Part shown: positions 8,980-31,211 of the stretch, in pieces
How the letters are laid out: each line of letters begins with the position of its first letter
Position numbering within the stretch: position 1 is the stretch's first letter
Assembly (NCBI GenBank): GCA_017443985.1
Contig: JAFSXR010000012.1
Coordinates: 1 to 61,244, forward strand
Reading direction: 5' to 3'
Source: Synergistaceae bacterium
Lineage (GTDB): Bacteria > Synergistota > Synergistia > Synergistales > Aminobacteriaceae
DNA length: 61,244 nucleotides
Notes under the pieces: model-generated
The model's database searches: none
The model's input: the letters and a program-made list of their open reading frames with translations, nothing else
Told to the model about the DNA's origin: nothing
Made by a program: the position numbers and the translations under genes

Positions 8980-9078
8980 GCAAAAATCCCCCTGTAAAAA
9001 TAAATTTTTAATGTGATTAGATTATATAATATACTCACCGTAATGATATTCAAGATTTTTTATGAGGAGGAACGTGTA

Positions 9079-10950
9079 ATGAAAAGGCGCGTATTTTTAA
9101 TTCTATCAGTGATAACGATGGCGGTTATAGCGTTCAGTCCTGTTTCACAAGCCGCAGAGGTAACAGGCACAGCTAAGGCGGACGGCTTCGGAGGCCCTGA
9201 CGCGATCACCGTAACGATCACCGTTGAGGACGGAAAGATCAAGAGCGTAAAAGCAGAAGGCCCGAAAGAAACAGAAGGCATCGGCTCGGTCGCTATTCAG
9301 AAACTTCCGGCAGAGATGGTCGAGAAAAATTCAATCAACGTTGACGGCATGACCGGCGCAACTTTCAGCTCGACGGGAATTTTGAAAGCAGCTGAAGCCG
9401 CGTTGAAGGCCGCAGGAGTAAATCCCGAAGATTATAAGAAAAGTTCAGACAGTGCAAAAGCCGCTGAAGAAAAAATTTTTGAGACCGATGTTGCGATAAT
9501 CGGCGCGGGCGGTGCAGGAATGGTCGCTGCTATCACAGCCGCAGACGCAGGGAAAAAAGTTATCTTAATTGAAAAACAGGCGATGGTCGGCGGAAACTCT
9601 GTGAGGTCTACCGGCGGAATGAATGCCGCGCACACTCCCGAACAGGATAAAAATAAATTCGGTGAGAATGCAGGCATCGAAAAAACTCTCAAGGCCGCTG
9701 AAAAATTTTCGGACAACAAATTTATTGCGGACTTGGCCGCGAAAGTCAAAGCACAGTACGAAGCATGGAAGGCAGACCCGAAAGGCTATTTTGATTCAGT
9801 CGAGTTAATGGAGCTTGATACAATCATCGGCGGACATGGAATTAATAATCCTTAACTTGTCAAAGCACTCTGCGAAAATACTGCGGACGCTATCAAATGG
9901 CTCAAGACGGTTAATATTGATTTAAGTTCTGTAGGAGCGTTCGGCGGCGCGTCAGTCAAGCGTATTCACAGACCCCTGAATGAAGAGAAAAAAGTTGTCT
10001 CCGTCGGTGCTTACATGGTCCCAAGACTTGAGGCGGCCTGCAAAGCAAGAAAAAACATCACGATAATGACAGAGACAATGGCAAAAGCAATTCTTACGGA
10101 CGATAAAGGAAACGTCTGCGGAGTTGAAGCCGAGAGCAAGGGCAGCAAAGTAATACTTAAAGCAAAAGCCGTCATTCTTGCGACAGGGGGCTTCGGAGCA
10201 AATTTGAAAATGGTTGCGGAACTCGAACCCTCTCTCAACGGTTTCATGACAACTAACGCGCCCGGAGCAACCGGCGAAGGAATTACAATGGCTCAAAAAA
10301 TCGGCGCGGCTGTCGTTGACATGAAAGAAATTCAAATTCACCCGACCGTACAGTTTGATACTTCAGCGTTAATCACCGAAGGACTTCGCGGAGACGGAGC
10401 TATTCTTGTCAATACAGAGGGCAAAAGATTTATTGATGAAGTTCTTGCACGCGATGTAGTCTCAAAGGCAGAAATCGATCAGCCTAACTCATTCGCTTGG
10501 CTCGTGATTGATAACAAAATGGCGGACGCTTCTTCAGTCATTAAGGGCTATATAACAAAAGGCTACACGTTCAAAGGCGATACTTACGAAGAATTAGCTA
10601 AGGCAATTAATATCCCTGCTGATGTTTTTGCAAAGACCATGCAGACATGGAACGGCCATGTAAAAGATAAAAAGGACGCTGACTTCGGTCGCACGAGTTT
10701 TGCTAATCCGTTAGACACGGCCCCGTTCTACGCGATAAAAGTTACTCCGGGCATTCATCACACGATGGGCGGATTAAAAATTGACGCGGGCGCACACGTT
10801 CTCAAAGCCAACGGCGAAAAAATTCCGGGATTATTTGCGGCCGGCGAAGTTGTCGGAGGAGTTCACGGCGGCAACAGGCTCGGCGGAAATGCTGTAGCGG
10901 ACTTCGTAGTTTACGGAAGAATCGCAGGAAAATCGGCTTCAGAGTTTTAA
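9079..10950 (+). pseudogene. FMN/FAD fumarate-reductase-like flavoprotein, in-frame TAA
   Basis: ATG 9079 has GAGGAGG 8 nt upstream and begins a signal peptide (MKRRVFLILSVITMAVIA). An FMN-binding domain with the ApbE flavinylation motif DGMTGATFSS follows, then an FAD domain (IGAGGAGMVAAITAADAG). TAA at 9853-9855 interrupts the frame, where the downstream paralogue has a Val codon. The same frame then continues intact to 10950, including IQIHPTVQF, GLRGDGAILVNTEGKRFIDE and GGVHGGNRLGG. Length with the stop ignored is about 623 residues, against 626 in the paralogue. The single lesion with otherwise clean coding suggests a recent nonsense mutation, a sequencing error or readthrough. Confidence 0.7.
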
Positions 10951-10955
10951 TCAGG

Positions 10956-10978
10956 TAGGAATTAGGAGTTAGGAGGTA
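10956..10978 (+). repeat. Heptamer array between flavoprotein genes
   Basis: Units TAGGAAT, TAGGAGT and TAGGAGG in tandem, sense to both flanking genes. A separate AAGGAGGA serves the next start codon. Confidence 0.7.
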
Positions 10979-11026
10979 AAATTCTTATCCCTGACTCATA
11001 TATTTTTAAGGAGGAATATTTTTATA

Positions 11027-12907
11027 ATGAAAAAACGTGTATTTGTAATCGTATCATTGTTATTAATGGCGGTTATTATGCTCAACACCTCGCAGGCCAA
11101 AGACACTTCGATAACAGGCAAAGCGACGGCGGACGGCTTCGGAGGAGCTGACGCGATCACCGTAACGGTTACTCTTGACGAGGGCAAGATTAAAAATGTA
11201 ACGGCAGAAGGCCCTAAAGAAACGCAGGGCATAGGCTCGGTAGCTATTGAGAAACTTCCGGCGGAAATGGTCGAGAAGAACGCTATTAACGTTGACGTTA
11301 TGACCGGCGCGACGATAAGCTCAACGGGAATTTTGAAAGCCGCTGAGGCCGCCTTGAAAGCCGCAGGAGTCAACCCTGACGACTATAAAATTAAAGCCGC
11401 AGACGTTAAAGAAGCTGAAGAAAAAATTTTCGAGACTGACGTTGCCATAATCGGCGCGGGCGGTGCAGGAATGATCGCCGCTATCACAGCCGCAGATGCC
11501 GGAAAAAAAGTTATCTTGATCGAGAAACAGGCGATGGTTGGCGGAAATTCAGTCAGAGCTACGGGCGGAATGAATGCCGCTCACACTCCTGAACAGTCGG
11601 GCAACAAATTCAACGAAGCCGCAGGGGTTGAAAAAACTCTCAAGACTGCCGCAGATAAATGGAGCAGTCATAAAGTTATCAGCGACTTGGCCGCAAAAGT
11701 TAAAGAGCAGTATGACGCATGGAAAGCTGACGGCGAAAAAGGCTACTTTGACTCAAGCGAGTTAATGCAGCTTGATACTTTAATCGGCGGACACGGAATT
11801 AACGACCCCGTATTATTAAAAGCTCTTTGCGACAATACTGCAGACGCTATAGCGTGGCTCAAGACAGTCGATATTGATTTAAGTTCCGTAGGAGCGGCCG
11901 GCGGCGCGTCAGTAAAGAGAATACACAGACCCGTTGACAAAAATAAAAAAGTCTTGTCCGTCGGAGCGACTATGATACCGAAACTCGAAGCAGCCTGCAA
12001 AGCCAGAAAAAATATAACCCTGATGACGGAGACAATGGCGAAATCAATTCTTACGGACGACAAAGGCAGCGTCTGCGGAGTTGCGGCAGATAGCAAAGGC
12101 AACAAGATAACAATAAAATCAAAGGCCGTAATTCTTGCAACAGGAGGTTTCGGAGCAAATTTGAAGATGGTTGCAATGCTTAACCCTGCGCTTGAAGGTT
12201 TCATGACAACGAACGCACCCGGAGCAACGGGAGAAGGAATTATTATGGCTCAGGAAGTCGGAGCGGCTGTTGTCGATATGAAGCAGATACAAATTCACCC
12301 GACCGTGCAATTTGATTCTTCAAATTTAATCACTGAGGGACTTCGCGGCGACGGAGCTATTCTCGTTAATACCGAAGGCAAGAGATTTATTGACGAAGTT
12401 TTAACACGCGACGTGGTATCAAAGGCAGAAATCGCACAGCCTCATTCTTTTGCGTGGCTCATAATTGATCAAAAAATGGTCGATGAAAGCTCTGTTATTA
12501 AAGGCTATATCGCAAAGGGCTACACGTTCAAAGGCGACACTTACGAAGATTTAGCGGCAGCGGTTAATCTTCCTGCTGACGTTTTCGCGAACACCGTCAA
12601 AACTTGGAACGGCTACGTGAAAGAACGCAACGATCCTGACTTCGGACGCACGAGTTTTATTAACCCGTTAGATACAGCACCGTTCTACGCGATTAAAGTT
12701 ACGCCGGGCATTCATCACACGATGGGCGGCTTAAAGATTGACGGAGCCGGGCATGTACTGAGGGGCAACGGCAAAATAATTCCGGGATTATTCGCGGCCG
12801 GAGAAGTTACGGGAGGCGTACACGGAGGCAACAGGCTCGGCGGAACTGCTGTAGCTGATTTTGTTGTTTACGGAAGGATCGCAGGAAAGAGCGCGGCGGA
12901 GTTCTAA
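11027..12907 (+). CDS. FMN/FAD flavoprotein reductase (fumarate reductase-like)
   Basis: An intact 626-residue enzyme with a signal peptide (MKKRVFVIVSLLLMAVIML). An FMN-binding domain (about residues 30-110) carries DVMTGATISS, whose Thr is the expected covalent FMN site. An FAD-binding-2 reductase domain follows (IGAGGAGMIAAITAADAG; HPTVQF; EGLRGDGAILV; TPGIHHTMGGLK; GGVHGGNRLGG). The arrangement matches soluble flavin-only relatives of flavocytochrome c, which reduce fumarate, urocanate or other unsaturated acids in the periplasm. No CxxCH haem motif is present, so electrons must enter through FMN. The substrate cannot be read from sequence. The tandem copy upstream is closely similar. Confidence 0.85.
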   Translation: MKKRVFVIVSLLLMAVIMLNTSQAKDTSITGKATADGFGGADAITVTVTLDEGKIKNVTAEGPKETQGIGSVAIEKLPAEMVEKNAINVDVMTGATISSTGILKAAEAALKAAGVNPDDYKIKAADVKEAEEKIFETDVAIIGAGGAGMIAAITAADAGKKVILIEKQAMVGGNSVRATGGMNAAHTPEQSGNKFNEAAGVEKTLKTAADKWSSHKVISDLAAKVKEQYDAWKADGEKGYFDSSELMQLDTLIGGHGINDPVLLKALCDNTADAIAWLKTVDIDLSSVGAAGGASVKRIHRPVDKNKKVLSVGATMIPKLEAACKARKNITLMTETMAKSILTDDKGSVCGVAADSKGNKITIKSKAVILATGGFGANLKMVAMLNPALEGFMTTNAPGATGEGIIMAQEVGAAVVDMKQIQIHPTVQFDSSNLITEGLRGDGAILVNTEGKRFIDEVLTRDVVSKAEIAQPHSFAWLIIDQKMVDESSVIKGYIAKGYTFKGDTYEDLAAAVNLPADVFANTVKTWNGYVKERNDPDFGRTSFINPLDTAPFYAIKVTPGIHHTMGGLKIDGAGHVLRGNGKIIPGLFAAGEVTGGVHGGNRLGGTAVADFVVYGRIAGKSAAEF

Positions 12908-21111: not shown

Positions 21112-21591
21112 TTACGCTAAAAAATCGTGCCCTGCGCTTGGAATATTATCGACTCTGACCTCCGGGAGCTCCGGCGGATTTCCTTTTTCTTTTTCACTCT
21201 CAACGAGTTCATTAAATTCTTCAGCGTCAAGAACTTCACGCTCAAGCAAAACTTCGGCGATTTTATCAAGCAGTGCGCGACGTTCTGTCAAAATTTCCTT
21301 TGCGCGTTCGTAACAATCATCGATAATTTTCTTGACTTCCTTGTCAATCGCGTAGGCTACTTCTTCGCTGTAGTTTCTGTCTTCGGAAATGTCCCGGCCT
21401 AAGAAAATTTCTTCGCGCTTCTTTCCAAGTTTCACAAGTCCTATAGAGTCGCTCATTCCGAGCTGGGTTACCATTTGACGCGCTGTTTCTGTTGCTTTTT
21501 CGAGGTCATTTGCCGCGCCGCTTGTAACGTCATCAAAGACAATTTCTTCGCTTACACGGCCGCTCAATAAAATTGCAATTCTGTTCATCAA
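21112..21591 (-). pseudogene. ftsH 3' fragment (duplicate C-terminus)
   Basis: A 159-codon open frame closely matching the last ~150 residues of the intact FtsH encoded at 22355-24235 ([49 protein letters not shown]). It lacks the membrane, AAA+ and HExxH parts, so it cannot be an active protease alone. Homology begins a few codons before the apparent Met and breaks towards the 128-bp repeat at 21620. Its tail (VESEKEKGNPPELPEVRVDN...) differs from the intact gene and may be the ancestral FtsH tail. Synonymous differences between the copies are numerous, so the duplication is old or came from a related strain. Confidence 0.8.
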
Positions 21592-21619
21592 GTCAGACTT
21601 TCTTTCTTAAATCTTTCTT

Positions 21620-21747
21620 AGAGCCTGTTCAGTATCTTTCTGGGAATCGAAAATATCTCTCGTTGCTGACTGAGAAAATTTAGCTTCAGTTAAATTTCGA
21701 TAAAACCTTGTGAGAACTGAATAATTTTTAGATACTAAACAGGCTCT
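21620..21747. mobile_element. 128-bp inverted-repeat element, copy 1 (MITE-like)
   Basis: The ends AGAGCCTGTTCAGTATCT and (reverse) AGAGCCTGTTTAGTATCT form an 18-bp terminal inverted repeat with one mismatch. There is no coding capacity. It matches copy 2 at 22145-22272 over all 128 bp with one visible difference (GAGAACTG versus GAAAACTG). It sits just upstream of the ftsH fragment. No convincing target duplication is seen; the flanks are ...CTT and AAGG.... Confidence 0.75.
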
Positions 21748-21831
21748 AAGGACTTCAAGAACGATGAGAAAACTCGTGAGAAATTACTCTCGGCACTTTC
21801 AAACTCAGAGGGACAGGTTCAGGTCTACAGC
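21748..21831 (+). other. Possible coding relic between repeat copy 1 and glycine-rich ORF
   Basis: On the plus strand the frame directly after the repeat reads KDFKNDEKTREKLLSALSNS and onward to VQVYS without a stop. The composition looks protein-like. It has no start and no recognised family. It may be the tail of a gene broken by the repeat, or chance. Confidence 0.2.
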
Positions 21832-22112
21832 ATTTTTTTTATCGCTTCAGAGAGATCTTGAGTTATTGTTGCATCAATTTTATCTTTCATTCCCAAAGCT
21901 CCAACTACTCCTCCCACTCCAGCACCTAATTTTGTACCAACCAACGCTCCACCACCTATAGCTGGAAGTAAAGCGGGAAGAGCAGCTAGCGAAGCACCCC
22001 CTGTGAAAGCTGCACCAGCAACACACACAACACCTGCAATACAGCCCCAAAAGCCCCCCTTTAAAGTACCTTCAACAGTATCACCAGTAACTTGACGTAT
22101 ATCTCTACCCAT
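21825..22112 (-). CDS. Small glycine-zipper hydrophobic protein
   Basis: 95 residues from ATG 22112, which has GAGGG 7 nt upstream; an ATG at 22130 lacks an SD. MGRDIRQVTGDTVEGTLKGG leads into two hydrophobic Gly/Ala-rich segments (FWGCIAGVVCVAGAAFTGG; LPALLPAIGGGALVGTKLG) with repeated GxxxG spacing, then a charged helix (KDKIDATITQDLSEAIKKML). Glycine-zipper helices pack tightly in membranes and occur in bacteriocins, effectors and membrane stress proteins. The class cannot be resolved. It lies as cargo between two 128-bp repeats, which suggests recent acquisition. Confidence 0.55.
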   Translation of the reverse strand: MGRDIRQVTGDTVEGTLKGGFWGCIAGVVCVAGAAFTGGASLAALPALLPAIGGGALVGTKLGAGVGGVVGALGMKDKIDATITQDLSEAIKKML

Positions 22113-22144
22113 TACATATCCCTCACTCATAAAAAATTTTTGTA

Positions 22145-22272
22145 AGAGCCTGTTCAGTATCTTTCTGGGAATCGAAAATATCTCTCGTTGCTGACTGAGA
22201 AAATTTAGCTTCAGTTAAATTTCGATAAAACCTTGTGAAAACTGAATAATTTTTAGATACTAAACAGGCTCT
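22145..22272. mobile_element. 128-bp inverted-repeat element, copy 2 (MITE-like)
   Basis: Same length, orientation and sequence as copy 1 apart from one base. The flanks are GTA and TAA, compatible with a TA duplication at this copy only. It lies between the glycine-zipper ORF and the intact ftsH. The two direct copies bracket about 400 bp, like a miniature composite element. Confidence 0.75.
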
Positions 22273-22354
22273 TAAATCTTAAATAATTTTTCTTAAAATA
22301 ATTTTTATTTAATTACTTGAAATATCGCTATTTGCGAAAGTATATCATATTCAC

Positions 22355-24235
22355 TTACCTGCCGTCCTGCCTGACGGCAGGCAGGTCGTCCTCGTGCATA
22401 AGTTTGTCGAGTTCTTCCGCGTCAATAACTTCACGCTCCAATAGCACGCCTGCGATCTTATCGAGCAGGGCTCGGTGTTCTGTCAAAATTTCTTTTGAAC
22501 GTTCGTAACAATCGTCGATAATTTTTTTGACTTCCTTGTCAATCGCATAGGCAACTTCTTCGCTGTAATTTCTGTCCTCCGAAATGTCCCGGCCCAAGAA
22601 AATTTCTTCGCGCTTCTTTCCAAGTTTCACGAGGCCGAGAGCGTCGCTCATGCCAAGCTGGGTTACCATTTGCCGCGCAGTCTCCGTAGCTTTTTCGAGG
22701 TCGTTGGCCGCGCCGCTTGTAACGTCATTAAAAACAATTTCCTCGCTCACCCGTCCGCTCAATAAAATTGAAATCCTGTTCATTAACTCGGACTTTGAGA
22801 TTAAAAATCTGTCCTCCTCCGGGAGCTGAAGAGTGTAGCCGAGTGCCGCGTGTCCTCTAGGAATGATTGAAATCTTGTGAACGGGGTCAGCACCGGGCAG
22901 AATTTTTGCGACAATCGCGTGGCCTGTCTCATGGTAGGCAATAATTTTTTTCTCATGGTCGTTGATTATGCGGCTCTTTCTTTCAGGGCCTGCCATGACG
23001 CGCTCAATGCCTTCCTCTAAATCTTCCATCGTGATTTTTTCTTTGTCCTTACGTGCCGCGAGCAAGGCTCCTTCATTGACGAGGTTTTCAATGTCTGCTC
23101 CGACAAGTCCCGGAGTGCTGCGTGCGAGGACGCTGACATCGACATCATCAGCAAATTGTTTTTCTTTCATGTGAACTTTCAAAATTTCTTCGCGGCCTTT
23201 AACGTCAGGACGGTCAACGACAATATGCCTGTCAAAGCGTCCCGGCCTCAACAAAGCAGGGTCGAGAATATCAGGTCTGTTAGTCGCGGCGATTAATACG
23301 GTGTTGCTGTTGTCGTCAAAACCGTCAAGCTCAACAAGAATTTGATTGAGAGTCTGTTCGCGCTCGTCATGTCCTCCGCCAAGTCCTGCGCCCCTGTGCC
23401 TTCCTACTGCGTCAATCTCGTCAATAAAAATTATGCACGGCTGATATTTTTTTGCTTGAGCGAAAAGATCTCTGACTCTCGCAGCTCCGACTCCGACTAG
23501 CATTTCGACAAATTCAGAACCGCTTGTGCAGAAGAACGGGACATCGGCTTCACCGGCGGCGGCTCTTGCCAAAAGAGTTTTACCTGTGCCGGGAGGGCCG
23601 ACGAGTAAAACGCCCTTCGGAACTTTTGCGCCGAGCTTCTTAAATTTTTCCGGGTCTTTCAGGAAGTGAATGACCTCCTGCAATTCTTCTTTAGCTTCAT
23701 CACAGCCGGCGACAGCGTCAAATTTTATTTTAGGTTTGTTGTCTAAAAATAATTTTGCTTTGCTCCGTCCGAACGACATCAAACGGCTTGGCCCGCCTCC
23801 GCCCTGCATACTGTTCATAAAGTAGACCCACACGCCGATTAATAAAAGCGTCGGGAAGAGGGACGTTAATAAAGTCATTACCCAGCTGTTTCGCTGCGGA
23901 GCTTCGACCGTTACCGTAACGCCCTTAGCTGCCGCTCTGTCAGCAAGCCCGGAAACATCGAGCCTGTATGTTAAAAATCTCTGACCGTCCGCAAGTTCGC
24001 CTTGAATGACCGCAGAACTTGACTCGCCGGGAACAGTGTTGTTTCTTATCTGTAAAATTTTTATTCGTCCTGCGTCAAGTTCTTTTAGAAATTGGCTGTA
24101 ACTTATTTCATCATATTGTTTCTGAACTTCTTCGGGCGTTAAATATGAGTTGACCATCGACACAACGACAAGCACAAGCACAAGATAAAGCCCTAGATTT
24201 TTTACGACTTTGTTCAAGATGAAAAATTCCTCCAT
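22355..24235 (-). CDS. ftsH: ATP-dependent zinc metalloprotease FtsH
   Basis: 626 residues. Two membrane helices (about 10-30 and 110-135) flank a periplasmic domain. An AAA+ domain follows with Walker A GPPGTGKT, Walker [14 protein letters not shown] and the second region of homology [20 protein letters not shown]. The M41 protease carries HETGH and later the Asp ligand in [11 protein letters not shown]. It degrades membrane and regulatory proteins. The final residues ([11 protein letters not shown]) are encoded by a palindromic insert at 22358-22381 and differ from the tail preserved in the adjacent fragment. Divergent from rlmN. Confidence 0.97.
22358..22381 (-). repeat. Palindromic insert forming ftsH 3' end
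   Basis: CCTGCCGTC (22358-22366) and GACGGCAGG (22373-22381) are perfect 9-bp inverted arms around a 6-nt loop. They overlap the last FtsH codons and stop just before the TAA. No U-tract follows, so it is not a standard terminator. Confidence 0.55.
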
Positions 24236-29801: not shown

Positions 29802-31211
29802 TTGAGCGAAATAATTAACAGCTTTAGTTCAGTTATAAATACTCTTAACGGCGTTATGTACGAGCCTTACGTACTGCCACTCATTTTGATTTGCGCAGGA
29901 ATTTATTTCACATTCAGGACAAATTTTTTACAGCTAAGACTCTTCAAAGAATCAATTAAAGTTGTAACAGAAAAGCCCGTCAATCTCGGTGCTACTTCAT
30001 CATTCGGAGCGTTAATGGTCTCGACGGCCTCGCGTGTCGGAACGGGAAATATTATGGGAGTTTCTACGGCTTTGTGTCTCGGCGGAGCGGGCGCAATATT
30101 CTGGATGTGGGTAACGGCAATCGTCGGAGGCGCAAGCGCATTCATCGAGTCAACCCTTGCACAGATCTATAAGAAGCGGGATAAGGACGGGAGCAGTTAC
30201 GGGGGTCCTTCGTATTATATGCAGGACGCACTCGGACAGCGTTGGCTCGGCGTTATTTTTTCAATCGTCTTGATTTTAACTTACGCCGTCGGTTACAACA
30301 TGCTCGCGTCATATAACACTCAGGATACTTTCTCAACGTTTTCATTTTATAACTCTTCAACGCCTTACATGATCGGAGCTGTTTTAGCAGTTTTATTCGG
30401 CGCGAGCGTACTTGGCGGGGCAAGACGCTTAACAAAAGTTACTGAAGTCCTAGTGCCTTTGATGGGCGTTATATACGTAATAGTTTCTCTGGCAGTAGTT
30501 ATTATGAATATAAATCTTCTGCCGGACGTGTTCGCAAAAATTTTCAAGTCTGCTTTCGACTTCAAAGCGATTTTCGGAGGCTTCACAGGGTCATGCTTAA
30601 TGTACGGAATTAAACGCGGCCTCTATTCCAACGAGGCAGGCATGGGATCAGCACCTAACGCAGCGGCGGCGGCGGACGTGTCGCACCCTGTCAAGCAGGG
30701 ACTTGTTCAAATGCTTTCAGTTTTCATTGATACGCTGTTAATATGTTCAGCAACGGCTTTCATGTGCCTGTTTTCAGGCGTTGAACCTTCAGCAAGCGCG
30801 GCAGGCGCGGCCTATGTTCAATCTGCAACTCAAACGGCACTCGGAGAATTTGGCCCGGTATTCGTAACAGTTGCGGTCTGCTTATTCGCGTTCACAACTT
30901 TAATCGGAAATTATTATTACACTGAAGGCTGTCTGCGCTTCATAATGAAGAGAGAGCCCGGAAAAACTTTTATGATGTGCTACAGACTTTGCGCAACATT
31001 CTTAGTTTTTCTCGGAGCGGTGCTTTCAGCCGGACTTGCTTGGGACACAGCGGACTTTCTTCAGGCTTTAATGGTCGTGATTAATATTCCCGTCATAATT
31101 ATCTTAACGAAGCCGGCTCTCGAAGCATTGAAAGATTACGAGGAGCAAAGAAAAACGAAAGACAATCCCCTGTATCATTCAACAGGCAACACAGATTTTT
31201 GGAAAGAATAA
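29802..31211 (+). CDS. Sodium:alanine/glycine symporter (AGCS family)
   Basis: A 469-residue, roughly 11-helix carrier. ATSSFGALMVSTASRVGTGNI matches the AGCS signature region (written here up to 20 residues from A to N plus I), and GGPSYYMQDALGQRW and YSNEAGMGSAPNAAAAADV are typical conserved loops. It would import alanine or glycine with Na+. The start is TTG with AGGAGG 11 nt upstream. It runs with the sugar kinase and faces dnaE convergently; no clear terminator hairpin lies between them, only a heptamer array. Confidence 0.9.
   Translation: MSEIINSFSSVINTLNGVMYEPYVLPLILICAGIYFTFRTNFLQLRLFKESIKVVTEKPVNLGATSSFGALMVSTASRVGTGNIMGVSTALCLGGAGAIFWMWVTAIVGGASAFIESTLAQIYKKRDKDGSSYGGPSYYMQDALGQRWLGVIFSIVLILTYAVGYNMLASYNTQDTFSTFSFYNSSTPYMIGAVLAVLFGASVLGGARRLTKVTEVLVPLMGVIYVIVSLAVVIMNINLLPDVFAKIFKSAFDFKAIFGGFTGSCLMYGIKRGLYSNEAGMGSAPNAAAAADVSHPVKQGLVQMLSVFIDTLLICSATAFMCLFSGVEPSASAAGAAYVQSATQTALGEFGPVFVTVAVCLFAFTTLIGNYYYTEGCLRFIMKREPGKTFMMCYRLCATFLVFLGAVLSAGLAWDTADFLQALMVVINIPVIIILTKPALEALKDYEEQRKTKDNPLYHSTGNTDFWKE

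Follow-up and report, generated by a model that had tools for sequence, protein, structure and literature searches.

Composites in which passenger genes lie between two MITEs have been documented mainly for Tn3-derived ends. Among them are the TIME-COMPs, which are bounded by Tn3-derived miniature elements and include the integron mobilization unit (PMC13367494, PMC4133298). Composites with MITESen1 in direct repeat have been proposed to originate when a circle recombines with a resident copy, and according to a 2026 survey no composite bounded by non-Tn3 MITEs had been reported in Enterobacteriaceae (PMC13367494). Mobile insertion cassettes (MIC/MICE), for example the qnrS2 cassette of plasmid pAC3, similarly carry a passenger gene between IS-like ends with no transposase (PMC5444012).

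The locus described here lies in a 61,244-nucleotide stretch of DNA from a Synergistaceae bacterium, analysed as a whole and referred to as the window. The genome to which it belongs (G000) is metagenome-derived; it comprises 76 contigs totalling 1.69 Mb and is 75% complete. The locus is of a known structure type, chiefly found with Tn3-type ends, and what is different here is the IS5-type ends. As in TIME-COMPs, passenger DNA lies between two copies of one transposase-free miniature element, here a MITE; the TTA present on both outer sides may be the counterpart of the short direct repeat outside a TIME-COMP. However, TIME-COMPs proper have Tn3-family inverted repeats and 5-bp duplications, whereas the window pair has IS5-family ends (17-bp GAGCCTGTT) and 3-bp TNA target sites. 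The putative unit also differs in lying in a gut Synergistaceae chromosome and in having no resistance gene. In comparison with a MIC, where one pair of ends surrounds the gene (PMC5444012), the window has a complete two-ended MITE on each side. The features of the locus are as follows:

21112..21600, minus strand: displaced second ftsH 3' end, part of the M41 peptidase domain
21618..21620, unstranded: outer left target-site copy, TTA
21621..21746, plus strand: MITE copy 1 with IS5-type ends, 126 bp, 17-bp terminal inverted repeats
21747-21749: inner left target-site copy, TAA
21747..21830, plus strand: trbJ fragment of about 27 codons, 79% and 74% identical to trbJ of G030 and G008
21825..22130, minus strand: glycine-zipper ORF, 101 aa; codon 7 (22110-22112) is the likelier start, with a GAGGG motif before it
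22143..22145, unstranded: inner right target-site copy, TAA
22146..22271, plus strand: MITE copy 2, 126 bp, one base unlike copy 1
22272..22274, unstranded: outer right target-site copy, TTA
22355..24235, minus strand: full-length ftsH with its C-terminal tail replaced

The two elements are direct copies that differ only at position 94 of 126 (G/A), in agreement with the single difference reported in a first-pass annotation of this DNA. Their terminal inverted repeats match at 17 of 18 positions, with one mismatch in the 17-bp ends (GAGCCTGTTYAGTATCT). The annotation had recognized the element correctly but gave it 128 bp and 18-bp repeats; comparison with other copies set the borders at GAGCC...GGCTC and the sizes at 126 and 17 bp, the outermost A and T being part of the 3-bp TNA target site. 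Allowing up to three mismatches, the window contains exactly four occurrences of the end motif, compared to 0.07 expected by chance. Neither copy contains an ORF or has coding capacity. The elements thus show the features of MITEs, as they are short and non-coding, have terminal inverted repeats, show target-site duplication in their relatives and share their ends with an autonomous element. A search of plasmids with the MITE gave no match, and 69 viral contigs carry the 17-bp motif, each with a single motif.

The annotation had proposed a search for more copies, and a third, diverged copy (70% identical) was identified in the same genome at C10:10159-10286. This copy interrupts a coding sequence and has TGA on both sides, and deletion of its 126 bp together with one TGA restores an open frame of 725 codons; this defines well both where the element ends and its 3-bp target duplication. 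At this locus (G000:C10:8659-11786), the interrupted protein is large and carries repeats of InlB type as well as leucine-rich-like ones. Weak partial matches on contigs C60 and C27 of the same genome lacked the end motifs and were taken as chance. Relatives of the same genus and family (G006, G025 and G111) carry elements of 126-162 bp that have these ends, and a scan of GTDB genomes showed dozens of MITEs with the same ends in many gut Clostridia. Among paired elements of other genomes, 42 of 51 have identical 3-bp flanks (23 TAA, 18 TTA and 1 TCA). A related MITE on G006:C64 is embedded in a ATTAGAAAATATCACCCTGTC repeat array and lies upstream of a transposase-like gene.

An 876-bp IS bearing the same 17-bp ends as the window MITEs was found in a congener, G010. 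Its two frames overlap around nine consecutive A; orfA matches DUF4096 and orfB matches DDE_Tnp_1 in Pfam. Both frames also match the NCBIfam IS5 model (IS5_3), orfB above the cut-off (E 2.3e-33), which places the element in the IS5 family by its IS5-type DDE transposase. On the basis of its two frames and TNA targets, we take it to belong to the IS427/IS1031 part of IS5. The full-length transposase that the annotation had suggested looking for thus exists in a congener, whereas no matching transposase was found in the window's own genome, which is 75% complete. The two outcomes that were named as arguing against a mobile element, no other copies and ends matching no transposon, were both contradicted. 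The window MITEs share with IS5-family elements the ends of the G010 IS and the TNA target sites, but unlike that IS they are non-coding, resemble it at the ends only and are paired around foreign DNA. They are best classified as non-autonomous MITEs with ends fitting an IS5-family transposase of the G010 kind, and the matching ends and TNA targets suggest that such an enzyme may move them.

The insert between the MITEs (21747-22145, approximately 400 bp) is chimeric. Its first 84 bases match the trbJ genes of the two congeners listed above, which adjoin other conjugation-type genes; the G008 protein matched TrbJ models with an E value of 5e-11, although it fell short of the cut-offs set for these models. 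What the annotation had called a possible coding relic is this trbJ fragment. The homology starts at the MITE edge, at a point where the intact gene reads TAA (GCTAAGGATTTC), and the far side of MITE copy 1 shows no clear trbJ likeness.

The remainder of the insert is mostly occupied by the glycine-zipper ORF, the hydrophobic GxxxG protein noted previously, whose stop codon falls in the trbJ-derived DNA. Relatives were found in two other species of the genus (53% identity in G004 and 47% in G003), with a flgL-like gene and a small membrane-protein gene nearby. GC3 is 0.23 in this ORF compared to 0.50 in ftsH. The protein gave no confident family in Pfam, PHROGs or NCBIfam, and its weak holin-like and tail-assembly matches were dismissed as glycine-rich low complexity. 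No relative was found by tblastn in plasmids and phages or in the viral-contig scan, and a consensus promoter scan identified sites no more common than in shuffled sequence. The ORF is a foreign gene and is possibly intact, and the cargo as a whole, a trbJ scrap with a small glycine-zipper gene, is most likely a passenger.

The cassette sits between the full-length ftsH and the displaced second ftsH 3' end, and so within a second rearrangement, a partial duplication of ftsH that the annotation had left unmentioned. In the nearest relative found, G019, the genome is collinear along the window, with one ftsH and without the cassette. At the sites that distinguish the two window copies, the complete ftsH mostly agrees with G019 over roughly its first 330 aligned positions but not in its tail, while the displaced copy shows the opposite pattern. 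The complete gene has lost its native C-terminal tail (window 22355-22800), and the displaced fragment retains about 300 bp of ftsH homology past the switch point. A donor of the foreign ftsH stretches was not found among 43 genomes of the genus, none of which was closer than G019. The reciprocal pattern is what one crossover with related DNA entering from outside would produce, and a chimeric assembly could look similar. Empty sites in relatives, another comparison suggested by the annotation, gave a partial answer, as G019 lacks the insert but the exact empty TTA site was not found; no relative was found with the cassette or with that site.

The target-site flanks are informative when the pair is considered as a unit. 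Each MITE alone has mismatched flanks (TTA/TAA for copy 1 and TAA/TTA for copy 2), whereas the pair has TTA/TTA outside and TAA/TAA inside. These paired flanks would fit a unit that arrived together, although the direct repeat around the whole unit is just 3 bp of TTA and flanks vary in relatives. The target-duplication argument is suggestive only, because flanks are identical in just four of seven single elements of related Synergistaceae and are mismatched TTA/TAA in the other three, and given these the flank pattern could arise otherwise.

On balance, we consider it probable that a MITE-cargo-MITE unit of foreign DNA entered a TTA site beside ftsH, with the cargo as a passenger. The two MITEs would have landed at TAA sites bordering 400 bp of foreign DNA, one of them inside trbJ of a conjugative element, and the resulting unit would then have reached the TTA site. 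Entry may have occurred by composite transposition, with the transposase acting in trans, or through a MITE-bearing circle (TAA) recombining with a MITE already present at TTA. Both routes predict TTA/TTA outer and TAA/TAA inner flanks, and the two cannot be separated here. Counting against such a unit are the lack of a matching transposase in a genome that is 75% complete, the search for a relative with the cassette or the exact empty TTA site, which found none, the mismatched flanks of three single elements in related Synergistaceae, and the fact that only one MITE pair with this cargo is known. The composite element proposed in the first-pass annotation is accordingly upheld in its transposable-element ends, its paired flanks and its insertion relative to G019, but not in movement as one transposon rather than by MITE recombination, nor in a membrane-active cargo. 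Its reading of near identity as recent movement was not sustained: the similarity of the copies does not date the event, because recombination can keep direct repeats alike. We hold tentatively a broader proposal, that in gut Synergistaceae pairs of IS5-type MITEs may function as true composite transposons which, given transposase in trans, take up conjugative-element pieces and small glycine-zipper genes and carry them to TNA sites.

Three other explanations were weighed against entry as a unit. The MITEs might have inserted independently on either side of DNA already in place, which would never have been a mobile unit. Single elements with mismatched TTA/TAA flanks do occur in G010, G025 and G111, such that each window copy could be a separate insertion with TA duplication. 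However, the trbJ homology reaches precisely to the MITE edge with no clear trbJ likeness beyond the element, the outer and inner flanks pair up, and the window copies are one base apart compared to 70% identity for the third copy of the genome, leaving independent insertion unlikely. We regard as similarly improbable an assembly chimera at this locus, with sequence from two strains joined through MITE repeats. A metagenome-derived genome in 76 contigs and 75% complete would allow such a join, as would the partial duplication of ftsH across the cassette with its reciprocal switch in similarity to G019 and the step in identity to G019 from about 88-90% left of the cassette to about 94% right. 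Nevertheless, identity is 97-99% further left, the window and G019 are collinear to the left and right alike, and a chimera by itself leaves unexplained why trbJ and glycine-zipper sequence lies between the MITEs.

The explanation we consider least probable, and very unlikely, is that the whole 1.2-kb insert is a conjugative-element remnant integrated in the ftsH 3' end, supplying a new tail, with the MITEs added later. It would account for the trbJ fragment and for the replaced ftsH tail with its displaced old 3' end, but the trbJ piece ends at a MITE and not at an element end, and the ORFs between 18 and 26 kb showed no integrase and no other conjugation gene. That an element integrated site-specifically into ftsH was itself judged unlikely because the ftsH homology continues past the switch point for about 300 bp, more than a short att core would account for.

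The probable entry of a MITE-bounded unit beside ftsH illustrates one way for a fragment of a conjugative element to end up next to a housekeeping gene. This case, with IS5-type ends and from an uncultured gut lineage, suggests that the route described for Tn3-derived ends is open to other transposase families as well. It also suggests that MITE-bounded units can be carried by genomes lacking the transposase. As a single locus read from sequence, it is modest evidence for either suggestion.

Two further observations concern the window outside the cassette. An amino-acid:sodium symporter-like gene at 29802-31211 is absent at that place in the otherwise collinear G019. At 9013-12907, the window contains tandem paralogues of an FMN-binding/FAD-dependent reductase-like gene, of which the first is split into ORFs at 9013-9855 and 10015-10950 and the second (11027-12907) is intact.
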